Origin: Halobacterium rubrum
GTDB taxonomy: Archaea; Halobacteriota; Halobacteria; Halobacteriales; Halobacteriaceae
Length of the DNA: 64,000 nucleotides
Direction of reading: 5' to 3'
Assembly: GCF_021729015.1 (NCBI RefSeq)
Contig: NZ_JAJQQZ010000001.1
Span: 1 to 64,000, forward strand
The translations under genes were made by a program, and so were the position numbers. Shown in pieces: positions 2,502 to 62,502 of this stretch. The notes beneath the pieces were generated by a model. It was not told where the DNA came from, searched no databases, and was given only the letters and a program-made list of their open reading frames with translations. Numbering within the stretch: position 1 is the first letter of the stretch; each line of letters opens with the position of its first letter.

Positions 2502-4262
2502 CTACCGGAGCGCGTCGAGTTCGAACTCGAAGCCGGCGACCGGCACTTCGACGTCGTGGTCGACGATGACCGCGGGGTGGAGTTCGCCGATGACGCCAAC
2601 CGGCTCGCCGTCGATCTCGACGGTGGCAGCGCGCCCGTCGATGAACGACGGGTGGTCGGTCGGCGGGGTGGCGAGGTCGACGTGGAACTCGTCGCAGAGT
2701 GCCTGCAGGCGCGCTTTGGCGTCCTCGTAGGAGGCGTCGTGGCGCGCGAGCACGGCGGCGACGGTGCGGCGTTCGGCGACGCCCGTCTCGGTGTCGCCGT
2801 CGGCGTGAGCGGCGAAGCCGACTTCGGCGAGTTCCTGCGGGTAGGAGTGGTGCGTGTTGTTCTCCAGGACCATCGCGAGCGAGGGCAGCGCCCACGTGCG
2901 GAGGATGGTGAAGTCCTCGCTGTAGGGTTCGGAGATGGTGGCTGGCTCCGCAGCCCCCACCGCGTCGTCCTCGTCGGGCGACAGCCGCATGCGGTCGAAG
3001 TTCTCCGCCTCGCTGGTCATGTTGAAGTTCAGGAGGTCCTCGAAGCCGAGGCCGACGAGCGTCCCGCGGACGGAGCGTTCGAGCCGCGAGGACTCGGTGC
3101 GGCCGCCGATGGTGTTGACGTCCGGGTAGCGCGGCTCGAGGTCGTTGAAGCCGTACGCGCGCCCGAGGTCGTCGACGACGTCGACGGGGTGCAGCACGTC
3201 GACGCGGTACGGGGGAATCTCGACGTCGTAGCCGTCGTCGACCGGCGTGGCGTCGAGCCCCGAGCGTTCGGCGAGGTCGACGACGTCGTCGGTGGTGAAG
3301 TCGACGCCGAGCAGCGTCTCGATGCGGTCGTGGGTGACGTGTTTGGTGCGGACCGCGAAGTCCGGCCGGTGGAGCTCCCTGTCGGGGTAGTCGACCGTGA
3401 CGTCCTCGATGGTGGCGCCGCGGGCGTCCAGCGCGTAGCAGATGATGGCGCACATGCGGTCGAGCGTCCACTGGTCGGTGCCAGTGAGTTCGACGAACAG
3501 CTCCCGGGAGTCGGTGGTGACCTCGGTGCGCCGGCCGTTGATGACCGGCGGGAAGCTGAACAGCCCGATGGCGTCGTAGATTGCGGGGTAGGCGTCGTAG
3601 TCCGCCAGGAGGTCGGCGTAGGTCTCCCCGGTCGGGTGCTCGGAGAGGACGTCGGCGGGCGTGCGTTCGGCGTCGTCGTCCAGTGGGACGAACGTGTCGC
3701 CGTCGGGCTCGACGCTCGTGTACGTGATGGAGCGAGTGGCGGCGCCGTCGCCCTCGGTGTCGACGGCTTCGCTCGCGGTTTCACCGCTCGCGCGTTCGGT
3801 GGCGCTGCGCGCCACCTGCCCCTTGAGCATCGCGAGGTCGTGGATGCCGATGGCGCCCTTCGCGCGCTTGCGGCCCATCGTGGCGTGCAGCTTCTCCTGG
3901 AGCTGGATGAGCGAGTCGAGCGCGTCCTCGTCGAGGTCGACGCCGCGAATCACGGCACCGGTGACGTACGGCCGATCTTCGGGGACGTCCTCGACGTTGA
4001 TGGTCCACTCCGGGCTGTTCGTGTCGGGGACGTCGACGCCGCGGTCGTCGCCGTAGTGGTAGCGCAGACTGCGTGCGATGCCCTCGACGGAGAGCCGGTC
4101 GAGGCGGTCGGCCTCGAACTCGAGTTTGAAGTCACCGTCCTCGGTCTCGCCCTCGTACTCGATGCCGAGGCCGAAGAGGTCCTGGCGGAGGTCGTCGTCG
4201 TCCTTGTCGCGGTGGCCGGTGAGCCGGCGGAGTTCGTCGGGGTCGACGTCGACGACGGGCAT
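2502..4262 (-). CDS. pheT: Phenylalanyl-tRNA synthetase beta subunit
   Basis: A 586-residue archaeal-type PheT. With PheS it forms the heterotetramer that charges tRNA-Phe; PheT carries the B3/B4 editing and B5 domains. Visible are MPVVDVDPDELRRLTG at the start, GAVIRGVDLDEDALDSLI, IGIHDLAMLKG, and the B5-like HVTHDRIETLLGV and DVLHPVDVVDDLGRAYGF. The start ATG overlaps the pheS stop (TGATG), so translation is coupled. Residues about 149-164 (ARSATERASGETASEA) are a coding palindromic repeat inserted between conserved blocks. Convergent with pyrD. Confidence 0.97.
   Translation of the reverse strand: MPVVDVDPDELRRLTGHRDKDDDDLRQDLFGLGIEYEGETEDGDFKLEFEADRLDRLSVEGIARSLRYHYGDDRGVDVPDTNSPEWTINVEDVPEDRPYVTGAVIRGVDLDEDALDSLIQLQEKLHATMGRKRAKGAIGIHDLAMLKGQVARSATERASGETASEAVDTEGDGAATRSITYTSVEPDGDTFVPLDDDAERTPADVLSEHPTGETYADLLADYDAYPAIYDAIGLFSFPPVINGRRTEVTTDSRELFVELTGTDQWTLDRMCAIICYALDARGATIEDVTVDYPDRELHRPDFAVRTKHVTHDRIETLLGVDFTTDDVVDLAERSGLDATPVDDGYDVEIPPYRVDVLHPVDVVDDLGRAYGFNDLEPRYPDVNTIGGRTESSRLERSVRGTLVGLGFEDLLNFNMTSEAENFDRMRLSPDEDDAVGAAEPATISEPYSEDFTILRTWALPSLAMVLENNTHHSYPQELAEVGFAAHADGDTETGVAERRTVAAVLARHDASYEDAKARLQALCDEFHVDLATPPTDHPSFIDGRAATVEIDGEPVGVIGELHPAVIVDHDVEVPVAGFEFELDALR
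3770..3817 (-). repeat. In-frame double-hairpin repeat inside pheT
   Basis: On the coding strand: an 8-bp perfect stem with a 3-base loop (arms 3798-3805 and 3809-3816), a 10-base linker GAACGCGCGA, then GCGGT-GAA-ACCGC (arms 3775-3779 and 3783-3787). It encodes ARSATERASGETASEA. The order stem, linker with CGA, stem, and the reading register match copies inside the two XPD-like helicases. Confidence 0.75.
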
Positions 4263-26559: not shown

Positions 26560-28497
26560 GTGAATCCCGAGCGCATCGTCGGGGAGTTCCCCGCCCCCGA
26601 GTTCCGGGGCGCCCAGCAGCAGGCGCTTTCGGACATCCGGGACGCGTTCGCGGCGGGGAACGACGTGGTGCTGGTGCGGGCGCCCACCGGGAGCGGGAAG
26701 AGCCTGCTCGCGCGCTCCATCATGGGGTGCGCCCGGCGGGCTGCCGACGCCAGCCCGAGCGACGCCGTCGGCGCCTACTACACGACGCCGCAGGTGAGCC
26801 AGCTCGACGACGTCGCCGAAGACGACCTGCTGGAGGACTTCAAGCTCATCCGGGGGAAGTCCAACTACACCTGCATCCTGCCCGACGAGGAGACCACGCC
26901 CGTGGACCGGGCGCCGTGCGCTCGCGAGCGAGGCTACGACTGCGCGGTGAAACACCGCTGTCCGTACTTCTCCGACCGCGCCATCGCGTCCTCCCGGGAC
27001 TTCGCGGCGATGACGCTGGCGTACTTCATGCGCACCGCCGGCAGCGAGGTCTTCAGGAAGCGCGACGTCTGCGTCGTCGACGAGGCCCACGGGCTCGCGG
27101 AGTGGGCGGAGATGTACGCGACCATCGACCTCGACGACCGGACGGTGCCGGTCTGGGAGGACGTCCGCGTCCCGGACGACCTCGACGGCGACCCCGACAG
27201 GACCGTGGACTTCGCCGAACACCTCGTTCGAGTCTGCGAGGGCGCGAAAGACGACCTGCTCGGGCAGGACGAGCTCACCGCCGAGGAGGTCGCTCGCCGG
27301 GACCGGCTCCAGGAGCTCATCTCCGAGCTGAACTGGTTCGTGGAGGACTACCGCGACCCCGAGTCGGCGACGACGTGGGTGGTGGACAGCGAGGCGCCAC
27401 GCGCCTCGGAACGGTCGAGCGGGCGGAGCCCGCGAGACGCCGACGCCGAGGCGGTCACCATCAAGCCGATGGACCCGGAGCGCTACCTCAAACACACCGT
27501 CTGGGACCGCGCGAACAGGCACGCGCTGCTCTCGGCCACGATTCTGAACAAGGAGGCGTTCTGCCGGAGCGTCGGCCTCGACCCGTCGAACGTCGCGCTC
27601 GTCGACGTCGAACACACCTTCCCCGTGGAGAACCGGCCGCTGTACGACGTGACGCAGGGGAAGATGACCTACGAGCACCGCGAGCAGACGCTGCCGAAGG
27701 TCGCCGAGACCGTCGTGCGCGCGATGGCGAACCACCCCGACGAGAAGGGCATCGTTCACGCCCACAGCTACGACATCGCGGAGAAGCTGGCGGCCCACCT
27801 CGACGACGTCGGCGTCGGCGACCGCGTGCGGACCCACGACTCGGACACCCGGGACGCCGAACTGGAGCGCTGGAAAGCCAGCGACGCCCCCGAGGTGTTC
27901 GTCTCCGTGAAGATGGAGGAGGCCCTCGACCTCGCTCACGACCTCGGGCGCTGGCAGGTGCTGTGCAAGGCGCCGTTCCTCAACACGAACGACTCCCGCG
28001 TGGCCGCGAGGCTCGCGGACGGCCAGTGGGCGTGGTACTACCGGACCGCCCTCCGAACCGTCATTCAGGCCTGCGGCCGGGTGGTGCGCGCCCCCGACGA
28101 CTACGGCGCCACCTACGTCGCCGACGCGAGCATCCTCGACCTCTTCGAGCGCGCCCGCACCGACATGCCGCCGTGGTTCGCCGACCAGGTCGACCGCATG
28201 AGCACGCCGGACCTCCCGCCCGCCGACCCCGAGGCCGCGCTCGGCGAGACAACCACGAGCGTCGAACAGGTCGAGACGTTCGACCGCTCCGACAGCGGTG
28301 ACCGGAGCGGGTCGAGGAGTGGCGGTGGCGGCAGTAGCAGTTCGGACGGGAGCGGTGGCAGCAGCAGCAAAAGCGGTGGTAGCGGTAGAAGCGGCGGCGG
28401 TGGCTCCGGCGGGGGGGCGCCCGTCGGCCGGACGACGGACTACGAGGACCGCGAGAGCAAGGGGTCGCCGGTCGCCGACGTCTGGAACACGGAGTAG
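26560..28497 (+). CDS. XPD/Rad3-like DNA helicase (copy 1)
   Basis: A 645-residue SF2 helicase of the DEAD_2 group. Walker A is APTGSGKS (residues 41-48) and the DEAH box is VVDEAHGLAEWA (about residue 174). Between them are cysteines in YTCILPDE, APCARERGYDCAVKHRCPYF, an XPD-like Fe-S cluster candidate. C-terminal motifs include LLSATIL and QACGRVVRAPDDYG. Residues about 278-293 are a coding palindromic repeat, and the last 65 residues are Ser/Gly-rich and probably disordered. GTG is the start, giving the family N-terminus EFPAPEFRGAQ. Likely role: DNA unwinding in repair. Confidence 0.9.
   Translation: MNPERIVGEFPAPEFRGAQQQALSDIRDAFAAGNDVVLVRAPTGSGKSLLARSIMGCARRAADASPSDAVGAYYTTPQVSQLDDVAEDDLLEDFKLIRGKSNYTCILPDEETTPVDRAPCARERGYDCAVKHRCPYFSDRAIASSRDFAAMTLAYFMRTAGSEVFRKRDVCVVDEAHGLAEWAEMYATIDLDDRTVPVWEDVRVPDDLDGDPDRTVDFAEHLVRVCEGAKDDLLGQDELTAEEVARRDRLQELISELNWFVEDYRDPESATTWVVDSEAPRASERSSGRSPRDADAEAVTIKPMDPERYLKHTVWDRANRHALLSATILNKEAFCRSVGLDPSNVALVDVEHTFPVENRPLYDVTQGKMTYEHREQTLPKVAETVVRAMANHPDEKGIVHAHSYDIAEKLAAHLDDVGVGDRVRTHDSDTRDAELERWKASDAPEVFVSVKMEEALDLAHDLGRWQVLCKAPFLNTNDSRVAARLADGQWAWYYRTALRTVIQACGRVVRAPDDYGATYVADASILDLFERARTDMPPWFADQVDRMSTPDLPPADPEAALGETTTSVEQVETFDRSDSGDRSGSRSGGGGSSSSDGSGGSSSKSGGSGRSGGGGSGGGAPVGRTTDYEDRESKGSPVADVWNTE
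27391..27440 (+). repeat. In-frame double-hairpin repeat in XPD-like helicase 1
   Basis: GAGGCGC-CAC-GCGCCTC (27391-27407), the linker GGAACGGTCGA, then GCGGGC-GGA-GCCCGC (27419-27433). It encodes EAPRASERSSGRSPRDA. An almost identical copy lies in the other XPD-like helicase at 55761-55810, and a related one in pheT. The insertion falls in a variable loop before the motif that starts ITIKPMDPERYL-like text. Confidence 0.85.
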
Positions 28498-30036: not shown

Positions 30037-31132
30037 CGGGGAGGACGTGGAGGCCGGCCCGGGATTTGAGCGCCGGCACCGTCGACGCGTCTGGGTCGAC
30101 GTAGTCCGGCCGGGGCACGGTCTCGGCCTCGTAGGTCTCCGGGTCGAGAATCTGGATGGAGGCGTCGTCCTCGGCCGTGACGACGGTCGCCTCCGTGGCG
30201 TCCTCGACGGAGCCGAGTTTGCGGGCGTCCGGGCTGTCGCCGTCCTCGAAGCTGGCCTCGTAGGGTTCGCCCGTGGTCACGCGGACGCCCTTGAGGTTGC
30301 CGTGGTTCGACCGCACGAGCACCGGGCCGCCGTCGTCGTCGGCGAGGTCCACGACGTCTCCGGGCGTGAACTCGGGGAGGCGGACGGCGTACGTCACCCG
30401 GTAGACCTCGTTGCCGTCGTCGTCCTCCGTGATGAGCGTCTCGTGGTCCTCGAAGCCGCCGCCGAACTCCTCGACGAGCTTCCGGGCGAGCTTGAGCCCG
30501 ATCTTCGTCGTGGAGACCTTGATGTCGATGCCGGACTCGGCCGGCGATATCTCGGTGACGAACGCCTCCCGGTCGCCGGTGTCCTCGAGGTCGCCGACGA
30601 TGCGGTGGGCGAGCTCGGTGGCTCGCTCGGTCTCCTCGCTGGTCGGGTCCCGGCCCACGGCCCGCACCTGCACTGTCGAGGCGTACGACTCCCCGGCGAT
30701 GCGGCCACAGCGCGTGCACGTCTGGCGGCTCACCTTCACCGTGACGGTGACCTGCTCGGTCCGGTGGGTGTCCCGGACGACGCCCGTGAACGTCGCGTGC
30801 ATCCGGACGGTGTTGTCGTCGAGTTTCTCCGGGCGGACCTCCCAGTCGACGTCCTCGGCCTCGAGGTGGACGCCCAGCGCCTCCGTCGTCTCCGCGACGG
30901 CGACGTCGACGTAGTCGTCGGCGCCGACGTCCACCCAGCGGTTCCCGCGGTGGACGGCCCCGCAGCGCGCGCACACCATCACCTCGATGGTGTCGGGAGC
31001 GTCCACGAGGTCGAAGTCCTCGAAGTAGCAGGCGTCGCACAGCGACTGCTCGCGGCGCGTCGCGCCGCTCCCGCCGCCCGCCTCGACGGGGTCTCCACAC
31101 TGCGGGCAGAAGCTACTGCCTGCGTCGGTCAT
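30029..31132 (-). CDS. NMD3-family protein
   Basis: A 367-residue homologue of the eukaryotic 60S export adaptor NMD3. The N-terminus has zinc pairs CPQCGDP, LCDACYF, MVCARCGAVH and, later, QTCTRCGRIAGESY, followed by the NMD3 core with the DIKVSTTKIGLKLARKLVEEFGG stretch in two parts. Archaea lack a nucleus, so a role in large-subunit maturation is probable. ATG 31132 is supported by a CTTAAC TATA-like box (minus strand, near 31156-31163) about 25 bp upstream. Confidence 0.9.
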   Translation of the reverse strand: MTDAGSSFCPQCGDPVEAGGGSGATRREQSLCDACYFEDFDLVDAPDTIEVMVCARCGAVHRGNRWVDVGADDYVDVAVAETTEALGVHLEAEDVDWEVRPEKLDDNTVRMHATFTGVVRDTHRTEQVTVTVKVSRQTCTRCGRIAGESYASTVQVRAVGRDPTSEETERATELAHRIVGDLEDTGDREAFVTEISPAESGIDIKVSTTKIGLKLARKLVEEFGGGFEDHETLITEDDDGNEVYRVTYAVRLPEFTPGDVVDLADDDGGPVLVRSNHGNLKGVRVTTGEPYEASFEDGDSPDARKLGSVEDATEATVVTAEDDASIQILDPETYEAETVPRPDYVDPDASTVPALKSRAGLHVLPDA

Positions 31133-47980: not shown

Positions 47981-48105
47981 GCGGCGAAATCCGTCGACAG
48001 AACAGCGCTCCAGTGGGCTCGCGGCTCACTCCGTTCGCCGCTCGCCATTTCCGCGGTTCTCACTCGCTACGCTCGCTCCGAATCGCGCTCTCCTTCCGAG
48101 CCACG
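47981..48105. other. Convergent intergenic region with palindromic motif
   Basis: Between the ends of two convergent genes. Contains actcgctacgctcgctcc (about 48062-48079), a near-perfect palindromic motif also seen in copy 1 of the large element and after the tRNA. No gene is supported. Confidence 0.5.
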
Positions 48106-53859: not shown

Positions 53860-54084
53860 ATGGTGGCGGACATCGACACAAGCCTGCTCGGACGGGACGT
53901 ATCGTTCACGCTGGCCGAACCGTGGCTGGCGTACTGGCTCGTCGTCATGCGGTTCGCCGTCGGGTGGTGGCTGCTGCACGCCGGCATGGACAAGCTGTTC
54001 AACTGGCCGTTCGACGCCAGCTGGTTCGTCGGCGGCGCCGCCGCCCCTCCCGAGGCGGAGGTTTATACGGCGTGCCGGTCATAA
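53860..54084 (+). pseudogene. Truncated DoxX-like membrane protein
   Basis: A 74-residue ORF matching only the first third of DoxX-family membrane proteins: SFTLAEPWLAYWLVVMRFAV, then WWLLHAGMDKLFNWPFDASW. The DoxX motif FHAG-DK and FDASWF is intact, but after PPEAEVYTACRS the ORF stops and the promoter of the next gene begins. It keeps a good promoter (acatttaag near 53811-53819). Probably a deletion remnant. Confidence 0.7.
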
Positions 54085-54095
54085 CCTCGGACAAC

Positions 54096-56387
54096 GTGGC
54101 CGCCAGCGACGCCGACTACATGCAGTTCTTCCCGAAGCCGTCGCCGTACGACAACCAGCGGGCGGCGATGGACGAGATCCGGGACGCGCTCGACGGCGGC
54201 CGAGACGTTCTCTTCGAGGGCGCCTGCGGGACGGGCAAGACGCTCGCGGCGCTCGCGCCGGCCCTGGCGCACGCACAGGCCGAGGACAAGACCGTCGTCA
54301 TCACGACGAACGTCCACCAGCAGATGCGCCAGTTCGTCCGGGAGGCCCGCGAGATCCACGACGCCGAGCCCATCCGTGCGGTCGTGTTCAAGGGCAAGGG
54401 GTCGATGTGCCACATCGACGTCGACTACGAGGAGTGCCAGGTGCTCCGGGACAACACCCACGAGCTCGTGGACGCCGAGCGCGACAAGCGCCAGCTGGAG
54501 GAACGCCAGCGCGCGCTCCTCGACGAGGCGCAGGCCGGCGACAGCGAGGCCGCCGACGCCCGGCAGGCCGTGATGGACGAACTCGAAGCCGTCGAGGACG
54601 AGCTCGACGACCTCGAGGACGGCAACGTCTGCGAGCGCTACTACGAGAACCTCGTCGGGGACAACGACGAGTTCTACCAGTGGCTGTACGACGGCGTCCG
54701 GACGCCCGAGGACATCTACGACTACGCCGAGGAGGCGGGGCTGTGCGGGTACGAACTCCTCAAGGACGGCATCGAGGGCGTCGACCTCGCGGTCTGCAAC
54801 TACCACCACCTGCTGGACCCCGGGATTCGCGCGCAGTTCTTCCGCTGGCTCGGCCGCGACCCCGAGGACGTCGTGGTGGTCTTCGACGAGGCGCACAACG
54901 TCGAGGACGCCGCCCGCGACCACGCCGCCGAGACGCTCACCGAGCACACTCTGGACAGCGCGCTCGACGAACTCGAGGAGACGAGCGACCCCCGGGCGGA
55001 GGCGGCCGAGCGCGTGCTCGGGGCGTTCCGGGACGCGCTCGTCGAGACCTGCGAGGACTCCTTCGGGCCGGGCGGGAAGGGGCCGACGCGCGCGAAGTCC
55101 GAGGTCGGCTCCAACTGGGAGGACGTCCCCGTGGCGAACGACGACCGGCGGGACGACCTCACACTCTCCTTTCTCCAGTCGTACACCGGCCCGGGCATCA
55201 ACGAGGACGTCACCGACGCGCTCGGGCTCGGCGACTATCTGGACGAGGAGTACGAGGACGCCTACCGGAACGGCGACGCGACGACCCGCCGTGACTGCCA
55301 CGTGCTCGCCGCCGCCGAGTTCGTGGAGGCGTACGTCGAGCGCGGCGGCGAGTTCGGCCAGTACCCGACGGCGGCGGTGCGCCGCGACGACCGCACCGGC
55401 GACGTGTACGGTCGCGCGGAGCTGTACACCTGCATCCCCCGGGAGGTGACGACGGACCTCTTCGACGCCGTGCACGCGAGCGTCCTGATGAGTGCGACGC
55501 TCCGTCCGTTCGACGTCGTCGGCGACGTGCTGGGGCTGGAGGACCCAGTCGAGCTGGCGTTCGGCCTCCAGTTCCCCGAACAGCGCAGGCGGACGTTCGC
55601 CGTCGACACCGAGCCGCTGTTCTCCTCGAACCGCGAGGACCCCGCGACCCAGCAGGCGGTCGCCGACGCGCTCAGGGACGCGATGCGGTTCACGCCCGGG
55701 AACTGCCTGTTCTTCTTCCCGAGCTACGCCGAGGCCGAACGCTACCACGACTTGGTGGGCGAGGCGCCACGCGCCTCGGAATCGTCGAGCGGGCGGGGCC
55801 CGCGAGACGGCGGCGTCGACGGCAACACCCGCTACCTCGACGAGCCCGGCGTGGCGGCCGAGGACCTCCGCCAGGAGTTCGTCGCCGACCGCAGCGGCGC
55901 GCTGTTCACGTCGCTGTGGGGGACGCTCGCCGAGGGCGTGAGCTTCGACGGCGACGACGCCCGCACCGTCGCGGTCGTCGGCGTCCCCTACCCCCACCTC
56001 GACGCCCGGGCCGAGGCAGTCCAGGACGCCTACGCGACGGCGTTCGCCGACCGCGACGAGAAGGGCGGCGACGGCGGTGGCCGGCGTCGCCGGGGCAGCG
56101 GGGACGCCGGCTGGCGGTACGCCGTCGAGATTCCGACCGTGCGCAAGACCCGGCAGGCGATGGGCCGCGTCATCCGCTCCCCCGAGGACTTCGGCGTCCG
56201 GATGCTCGTCGACCGCCGGTACACGGCCGCCAGCCGCACCGGGATGCGGAAGTACTCCGTGAACGCGACGTTCCCGCCCGAGGAGCGCGCCGAGATGGTC
56301 GACGTCGACCCGGAGAAGCTGCGGTTCTCGCTGTTGAACTTCTACGGTGACATGGAGGCCTACGACGGCGACCCGCCGTCGCCCTGA
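54096..56387 (+). CDS. XPD/Rad3-like DNA helicase (copy 2)
   Basis: A 763-residue DEAD_2 helicase. Walker A is EGACGTGKT (about residues 40-48); the four-cysteine Fe-S region includes SMCHIDVDYEECQVL, GNVCERYYEN and GLCGYELL; the DEAH box is VVVFDEAHNVEDAARDHA (about residue 264). Later motifs are LMSATLRPFD, FFFPSYAEAERY and RQAMGRVIRSPEDFG. Residues about 556-571 are a coding palindromic repeat like that in helicase 1. GTG 54096 follows a gtttatacgg TATA by about 30 bp. Inferred role: repair or replication helicase. Confidence 0.92.
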   Translation: MAASDADYMQFFPKPSPYDNQRAAMDEIRDALDGGRDVLFEGACGTGKTLAALAPALAHAQAEDKTVVITTNVHQQMRQFVREAREIHDAEPIRAVVFKGKGSMCHIDVDYEECQVLRDNTHELVDAERDKRQLEERQRALLDEAQAGDSEAADARQAVMDELEAVEDELDDLEDGNVCERYYENLVGDNDEFYQWLYDGVRTPEDIYDYAEEAGLCGYELLKDGIEGVDLAVCNYHHLLDPGIRAQFFRWLGRDPEDVVVVFDEAHNVEDAARDHAAETLTEHTLDSALDELEETSDPRAEAAERVLGAFRDALVETCEDSFGPGGKGPTRAKSEVGSNWEDVPVANDDRRDDLTLSFLQSYTGPGINEDVTDALGLGDYLDEEYEDAYRNGDATTRRDCHVLAAAEFVEAYVERGGEFGQYPTAAVRRDDRTGDVYGRAELYTCIPREVTTDLFDAVHASVLMSATLRPFDVVGDVLGLEDPVELAFGLQFPEQRRRTFAVDTEPLFSSNREDPATQQAVADALRDAMRFTPGNCLFFFPSYAEAERYHDLVGEAPRASESSSGRGPRDGGVDGNTRYLDEPGVAAEDLRQEFVADRSGALFTSLWGTLAEGVSFDGDDARTVAVVGVPYPHLDARAEAVQDAYATAFADRDEKGGDGGGRRRRGSGDAGWRYAVEIPTVRKTRQAMGRVIRSPEDFGVRMLVDRRYTAASRTGMRKYSVNATFPPEERAEMVDVDPEKLRFSLLNFYGDMEAYDGDPPSP
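55761..55810 (+). repeat. In-frame double-hairpin repeat in XPD-like helicase 2
   Basis: GAGGCGC-CAC-GCGCCTC (55761-55777), linker GGAATCGTCGA, and GCGGGC-GGG-GCCCGC (55789-55803), encoding EAPRASESSSGRGPRDG. It differs from the copy at 27391 by only a few bases although the two helicases are otherwise well diverged. Confidence 0.85.
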
Positions 56388-61572: not shown

Positions 61573-62502
61573 TTGCGCGTCGGATTACTCTACTCCCGGA
61601 TTCGCCGCGACGAGAAGCTGCTGCTGGGCGAACTCCGGGAGCGCGGCCACGACGTCGAGAAGATCGACGTGCGCGAGCACGGCTTCGACCTCGACGGCAC
61701 CGACGCCCCCCTGATGGACTGCGACCTGGTCGTCGACCGCTGTCTGGCGACCAGCCGCTCCGTCCACCTCACAGAGGCCTGCGAGACGTACGGCGTGCCG
61801 GTCGTGAACAGCGCCGACACCGCCGCCGTCTGCGCGAACAAGGCCAAGACCAGCCTCGCGCTCGCGGACGCCGGCGTCCCCACGCCGGAGACGACCGTCG
61901 CGTTCACGCCCGAGAGCGCGCTCGACGCCATCGAGGACTTCGGCTACCCCTGCGTGCTGAAGCCCGTCGTGGGCTCCTGGGGCCGCCTCATGGCGAAAGT
62001 CGAGTCCGAGAGCGCCGCCGAGGCCATCCTCGAGCACAAGGACACGCTGGGCCACTACGAGCACAGCGTCTTCTACGTCCAGGAGTACGTCGAGAAGCCC
62101 GGCCGTGACGTGCGCGTACTCGCCGCCGACGGCGAGCCAATCGCTGCGATGACCCGGTCGGGCGACCACTGGCTCACGAACGCCGCGAAGGGCGGCGAGG
62201 TGAACGCCCTCGACGTCGACGACGAGCTCGCCGAAGTCGTCGCCGATGCCAGCGACGCGGTCGGTGGCGGCTTGCTGGGTGTTGATGCGATGGAGCGCGG
62301 GGCGCCACGCGCCCCGGAGGACGCGACCGGCGACGACGTCGAGCCGGGAGCCGAGGGCGGCTACACCGTCCACGAGGTCAACCACACGGTCGAGTTCAAG
62401 GCGCTGGACGAGGCCGTCGACGTCGACGTTCCGGCAGCCGTCGTGGACTGGCTCGAGGCGACGGCCGCCAGCGAGACGACGGGACTGGAGGTGACCGCGT
62501 GA
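61573..62502 (+). CDS. argX: LysW-glutamate ligase ArgX (LysX-type)
   Basis: A 309-residue ATP-grasp ligase attaching glutamate (or 2-aminoadipate) to LysW. It starts LRVGLLYSRIRRDEKLLLGE at a TTG; the ATP-grasp core has YPCVLKPVVGSWGRLMAKVE, FYVQEYVEKPGRDVRVL and HEVNHTVEFKAL. Because argG and argH sit just upstream and argC and argB follow, arginine synthesis is most likely. Residues about 243-255 (RGAPRAPEDATGDDVEPG) interrupt a conserved region with a hairpin-bearing insertion. Confidence 0.92.
   Translation: MRVGLLYSRIRRDEKLLLGELRERGHDVEKIDVREHGFDLDGTDAPLMDCDLVVDRCLATSRSVHLTEACETYGVPVVNSADTAAVCANKAKTSLALADAGVPTPETTVAFTPESALDAIEDFGYPCVLKPVVGSWGRLMAKVESESAAEAILEHKDTLGHYEHSVFYVQEYVEKPGRDVRVLAADGEPIAAMTRSGDHWLTNAAKGGEVNALDVDDELAEVVADASDAVGGGLLGVDAMERGAPRAPEDATGDDVEPGAEGGYTVHEVNHTVEFKALDEAVDVDVPAAVVDWLEATAASETTGLEVTA
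62296..62330 (+). repeat. Reduced coding hairpin repeat inside argX
   Basis: GGGGCGC-CAC-GCGCCCC (62299-62315) keeps the 7-bp stem and CAC loop of the helicase copies, with GGAGGACGCGACCGG following. The second hairpin is missing. It encodes RGAPRAPEDATG in the same register as EAPRASERSSGR. Confidence 0.65.

Follow-up and report, generated by a model that had tools for sequence, protein, structure and literature searches.

The window analysed here, a 64,000-nucleotide stretch of DNA, comes from a haloarchaeal genome whose nearest named species by PheT is Halobacterium salinarum (87% identical). Close to its start lies pheT, which carries a short palindromic segment within its reading frame, and two helicase genes farther along the window carry segments of the same kind. 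The genes and features concerned are listed below.

2502..4262, minus strand: pheT, encoding the beta subunit of archaeal phenylalanine--tRNA ligase, the host gene (TIGR00471, 430 bits, above the cut-off)
3771..3818, minus strand: 48-bp insertion in pheT, DNA CAGGTGGCGCGCAGCGCCACCGAACGCGCGAGCGGTGAAACCGCGAGC, peptide QVARSATERASGETAS (empty site of the nearest relative; covariance-model match 3769-3818)
3798..3816, minus strand: hairpin 1, GGTGGCGC / loop GCA / GCGCCACC (perfect 8-bp stem; DNA fold; covariation across copies)
3791..3797, minus strand: linker GAACGCG (GAA conserved and the rest variable in the 16-copy alignment A2; variable in orthologues)
3772..3790, minus strand: hairpin 2 with a tandem G.A motif, CGA-GCGGT-GAA-ACCGC-GAG (near-invariant columns in alignment A2; AGC/CGA codon use in coding copies)
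26560..28497, plus strand: Rad3/XPD-like helicase gene, host of helicase copy 1 (TIGR00604, 3.5e-17, below its cut-off)
27388..27439, plus strand: helicase copy 1 (SEAPRASERSSGRSPRD), net insertion of 51 bp at the site GGAC^GCC (empty-site comparison; E 4e-11)
53922..56387, plus strand: second Rad3/XPD-like helicase gene, host of helicase copy 2 (open reading frame; TIGR00604, 7e-54, below its cut-off)
55758..55809, plus strand: helicase copy 2 (GEAPRASESSSGRGPRD), net insertion of 54 bp (empty-site comparison; E 1.6e-10)
62296..62353, plus strand: weak match, probably to a decayed copy (RGAPRAPEDATGDDVEPGA; 32 bits and E 0.001 with the covariance model)

The peptide downstream of MLKG in PheT, QVARSATERASGETASEA, had been described in the initial annotation as the product of two stem-loops, and peptide and stem-loops are all present, with stem 1 at 3816-3798 and the second hairpin at 3790-3772, both on the minus strand. 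The location given there, 3770-3817, was right but one base off, the exact insertion being 3771-3818. Folded as DNA, this segment gives two hairpins at -18.8 kcal/mol (z -3.2), and the hairpin-2 motif found no match in 100 shuffles of the window. In the nearest relative searched (genome G003, locus L145), whose PheT is 94% identical, the site is empty and reads AAAGGC^GAAGCC; the empty arrangement ATGCTCAAAGGC^GAAGCCGTCGAC stands against the filled ATGCTCAAGGGG-[48 bp]-GAAGCCGTCGAC of this genome. On this comparison of sequences, the pheT segment is an insertion. A presence/absence survey of haloarchaeal PheT, as proposed in the initial annotation, found that the segment is not universal, being missing from most haloarchaeal PheT proteins as well as from human FARSB, where the loop that holds the inserted residues has no counterpart. 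The inserted region of PheT is predicted to be disordered (pLDDT below 50 at residues 148-175, in a model that is modest as a whole, mean pLDDT 70), and the insert would lengthen a variable surface loop downstream of MLKG.

The proposed kinship with the helicase element is borne out by the covariance-model match at 3769-3818 (E 6e-10, whole genome searched) and by clean empty sites, and the pheT copy is read in the same register as those at 27388-27439 and 55758-55809 on the plus strand, as had been claimed. Among the 13 genomes of the genus, the site of helicase copy 1 is empty in 11 and filled in this genome and G005, and that of copy 2 is empty in 10 and filled in this genome, G001 and G005. 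Comparison of empty and filled sites gives insertion lengths of 48 bp in pheT, 51 and 54 bp in the helicases, 54 bp near pheT and 60 bp at an intergenic site; lengths and ends of the element vary by a few bases, and its true termini are uncertain. No target duplication is seen at pheT or at the site near it, and helicase site 1 permits a 3-bp GAC, which is also the usual element end. Additionally, weak model matches in the window at 48015-48089 (29 bits) and 31033-31071 (25 bits) may be decayed copies.

The covariance model was built from the 16-copy alignment, in which 98.5% of cells are paired, with 8 pairs and 31 cells changed on both sides; none of 500 shuffles was as good, and slid versions of the alignment did not come near the observed pairing. 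The claim that differing stem bases are fully compensated is upheld. The 81 matches from the genus, in an alignment fitted to the model, give the same pairing result, and G-U is rare among the changed pairs. Across the family, hairpin 1 is a perfect stem, usually of 8 bp, with a 3-nt loop, and is followed by GAA plus four bases that are free to vary; the core of hairpin 2 is constant, GCGG...CCGC within CGA...GAG, and in it 5'-CGAG-3' would lie opposite 5'-CGAG-3' with two G.A pairs.

At E<=1e-4 the model finds 21 copies in this genome; narrow DNA patterns had found the three window copies only, an artefact of the pattern. With the same threshold, 12 of the 13 genus genomes have copies, and the number per genome runs from 0 (G006) to 45 (G005). 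Across the class Halobacteria, copies occur in 173 of 242 genomes and 59 of 74 genera (E<=1e-6); the family is present in most of the Halobacteria genomes sampled, within enzymes such as PheRS and the XPD-like helicases. Of 196 archaeal genomes sampled across the phylum, 20 match, all of them haloarchaeal and of the window's own order. Haloarchaeal plasmids carry copies too, 5 of 6 matches lying under annotated genes, and in annotated plasmid records genes for P-type ATPase and for PEP carboxylase overlie independent copies. The phage records searched hold no copies, and four pattern matches in viral contigs, all without hairpin 1, were judged to be chance. An Rfam search of the window gave nothing above the gathering score for the element, the sole match being one tRNA. 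Some variants were seen alongside the common form. An intergenic subfamily with GCGAACGG...CCGTGAGC has A-T in place of a G-C pair and often adjoins other short palindromes (loci L099, L101, L102, L245, L275, L286 and L302); this may be a lineage of its own that stays out of genes. Longer versions (L113, L115, L138), mostly intergenic, carry additional hairpins or have inserts in their loops.

Reading frames were called from the codon usage of the flanks with the element excluded, so that for most copies intragenic status was assigned without homology. On this basis 76 of 125 genus copies were callable as coding, and 75 of the 76 are read in sense in frame 0; all 25 coding copies of the class sample behave alike. 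Combined, 100 of 101 coding copies share one sense register, and they occupy about 63 sites. Intergenic calls make up about a third of the genus copies, fewer than the calls within genes. Stops do not explain the frame bias, since hardly any occur in sense frame 1 or in two antisense frames. Frame 0 alone has a net negative charge (21% D/E), and the coding copies all give hydrophilic, disorder-like peptides; the element reads as A-x-x-A-S/T-E-x-x-S-G. The element accounts for the recurring haloarchaeal peptide SEARSASE..SGDEPRD, which could mislead alignments and annotation.

These uniformly hydrophilic, disorder-like peptides are what one would see if the segment were an ordinary flexible linker that selection on the protein had produced repeatedly, GC-rich codons giving rise to the palindromes incidentally. 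Codon use refutes this reading: in full-length coding copies, the Ser before Gly is AGC in 65 of 65 (background 29%) and the Arg of PR is CGA in 64 of 65 (background 6%). Given also that the perfect 8-bp stems have different sequences and that intergenic copies exist, we regard a linker peptide as extremely improbable. Constraint at the nucleic-acid level is also apparent between orthologues. In 24 orthologous pairs, which were picked among model matches on both sides and therefore lean to conserved copies, changes were found at 5 of 285 structural third positions, 208 of 960 flank third positions and 19 of 72 loop 1 positions. The same outcome was obtained with six PheT copies from Natrialbaceae that had been selected for PheT homology and length of the insert, not by the model (5 of 180 structural third positions changed versus 535 of 1500 in the flanks, the pairs not being independent). 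Overall, third positions diverge by 2-3% in the structural part versus 22-36% in the flanks. Decayed copies exist (L028, L049 and the hel2 copy of G005). As far as these alignments tell, the hairpins are conserved after insertion. Selection on the fold had initially been proposed on the strength of the compensated stems. Selection on the nucleic acid is indeed supported, mainly by codon use and the slow third positions; the compensated stems are the weaker argument, since different copies may have entered with different perfect stems. Among orthologous copies there is one clear compensatory pair only (L248/L257). The fold may be kept by a function in the host, by copies homogenising one another or by a mutation process tied to the hairpins. 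The loops are the most changeable part. Twice, loop 1 is reverse-complemented between orthologues, GTA/TAC in L016/L022 and GAA/TTC in L237/L239, as an inversion of the hairpin at its site would produce, which suggests that the hairpins form in DNA.

The loop inversions also show that template switching occurs, and it could be argued that the hairpins are unselected, their stems staying perfect through template-switch repair or because copies homogenise one another. The common stem CGAGGCGC does recur in many copies, and orthologues of helicase copy 1 differ in both loops while their stems are identical. However, rare stems are kept as well, CGACGTGC in L225/L279/L124 and CGTGTCGC in L283/L103, while the flanks diverge by 8-21%; the non-palindromic CGAG motifs are equally invariant, and template switching, while it mends mismatches, does not prevent change. 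We therefore consider this account rather unlikely. A further alternative, to which we give a similarly small chance, concerns movement: the element may be a minimal IS200/IS605-type derivative, comparable to the terminal-only PATEs (52 bp) known from Haloquadratum, or a REP/BIME that a RAYT mobilises; a Y1 HUH transposase would recognise the hairpins and transfer the element in single-stranded form. REP hairpins resemble the mismatched second hairpin of the element. Two short hairpins in about 50 bp, the lack of a clear target duplication and preferred entry into another copy likewise recall the PATEs as described in PMC3119063. Against it, PF01797 is absent from this genome, with its 21 copies, and from five other copy-bearing genomes of the genus, whereas G006 has Y1 genes yet no copies; no conserved GTAG or CGTC tag appears in the columns of alignment A2, and the hairpins are at the very ends of the element. 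Given copies in genomes without PF01797, the need for a resident Y1 (IS200/IS605-type) transposase is not supported.

It is also conceivable, but less so, that the element acts on the host transcript through stability, pausing or protein binding, either as a structured RNA that is mobile or as an mRNA element with a cis-regulatory function. Conservation of the fixed, sense-oriented copies at the nucleic-acid level would fit such a role, but no Rfam family matched in the window, the few G-U among changed pairs are as expected for DNA, and about a third of the genus copies are intergenic. An archaeal mRNA intron was dropped as a candidate; an insert that is spliced out has no need to stay in a single reading frame.

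How copies come and go was examined at the PheT site. Occupancy there is patchy: a PheT tree of 89 rows, 18 of them filled, requires 16 changes or more, the same number that shuffled labels give. The PheT copy of the window differs by 2 edits from the PheT copy of G010 and by 9 or more from any other copy compared, those of its own genome included. Independent gain of each PheT copy from a resident pool was rejected, because copies group by site and not by genome. One ancestral PheT copy with many precise losses, or recombination that swaps filled alleles for empty ones and the reverse, fits better than repeated gain. Other copies lie near pheT or possibly elsewhere within it. In Natrinema altunense, a 54-bp copy of the THSSG..PRED type (L039:2066-2119) lies upstream of pheT, probably within pheS, at a site that is empty in N. 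gari; possible copies elsewhere in pheT were noted in Haloarcula amylolytica (L046:4255-4305), Natronococcus pandeyae (L084:4075-4120) and a Natrialbaceae MAG (L036:2344-2394).

Elements are also found inside one another. At L023, a 51-bp insertion lies within another copy. A subfamily ...GACCRTTCGAGCGGGC..GCCCGCGAGAAGAC recurs after GCGAG(C/T) inside other copies, between the S and G codons (L093, L126, L132, L135, L143, L243, L249, L263 and L267), suggesting that the second hairpin of the element is itself a preferred target. In the PheT of G005 (L156), a different two-hairpin insert, with a possible 4-bp duplication GATG, is nested in hairpin 2; it may represent another family of elements or a copy in reverse orientation.

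Taken together, the pheT segment very probably belongs to a haloarchaea-wide family of palindromic insertion elements, non-autonomous, 48-54 bp long and built of two hairpins, that are tolerated in-frame and whose fold is kept after fixation. Such elements would enter genes between codons without clear target duplication. We infer that they move as DNA: single strands would extrude the hairpins, and an enzyme provided in trans would cut them. Insertions in other frames would occur but be purged, as they would yield basic or hydrophobic peptides, and copies would be kept where translation gives a hydrophilic loop with acidic residues which the host protein can tolerate. Once fixed, the hairpins may be retained through use by a DNA- or RNA-binding host factor or as mRNA structure, and at the PheT site the same copy would have been passed down or swapped among species, with frequent precise loss. 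Counting against a family of tolerated insertions is the strict conservation of old copies, unlike what is predicted for a purely selfish neutral insertion. A tentative extension, doubtful at present, is that this is a class-wide element kept by hairpin action at the DNA or RNA level, which disperses structured sites in the genes of conserved enzymes and is mobilised neither as a MITE nor by a Y1 transposase. The pairs of presence and absence at identical sites make neutrality, upkeep of the fold and movement testable for small elements that lack coding capacity.

Among known systems, MITEs share their terminal inverted repeats with a transposon and produce target-site duplications, whereas the haloarchaeal element consists of two separate hairpins, not one terminal inverted repeat, and shows no clear duplication of this kind. 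The RU/ERIC-type repeats of enterobacteria are small and mobile, have open reading frames and also occur inside genes, but PMC2759123 describes them as intergenic repeat units of 103-168 bp with MITE similarities. REP/BIME sequences, with RAYTs of the GTAG and CGTC families, are described in PMC3733652 as short hairpins of many copies, sometimes inside genes. The element lacks a GTAG/CGTC tag, is longer and, in the genus sample, has more copies in genes than between them, and no Y1/RAYT gene is found in this genome. The PATEs and SMRs of Haloquadratum walsbyi are described in PMC3119063 as transposase-free repeats with palindromes and without target duplication; a 52-bp terminal-only PATE exists, and one class inserts into the palindromes of another. 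The element shares near-terminal palindromes and the lack of target duplication with PATEs. However, most PATEs are longer and tied to IS605 ends, and a family habit of in-frame coding insertion is not among the features given in that description; also, the Y1 transposase domain PF01797 is absent from this genome.

The closest parallel lies outside the archaea. Rickettsia is the best-known home of coding palindromic elements, and an archaeal case was not found in the open literature searched; that literature contained no earlier description of the family or its peptide. Rickettsia palindromic elements (RPEs) are, as described in PMC10969869 and PMC3733652, small palindromic repeats that lie in-frame in unrelated conserved protein genes and are translated as a tolerated segment. 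Like them, the haloarchaeal element is self-complementary, has many copies and lies within the reading frame of unrelated protein genes. The length of RPEs is about 100-150 bp and their host is Rickettsia, whereas the haloarchaeal element measures 48-54 bp, has two hairpins and a CGAG...CGAG motif and keeps its nucleic-acid sequence in orthologous copies. By analogy, then, its behaviour is that of the Rickettsia palindromic elements, in a different build and a different host.
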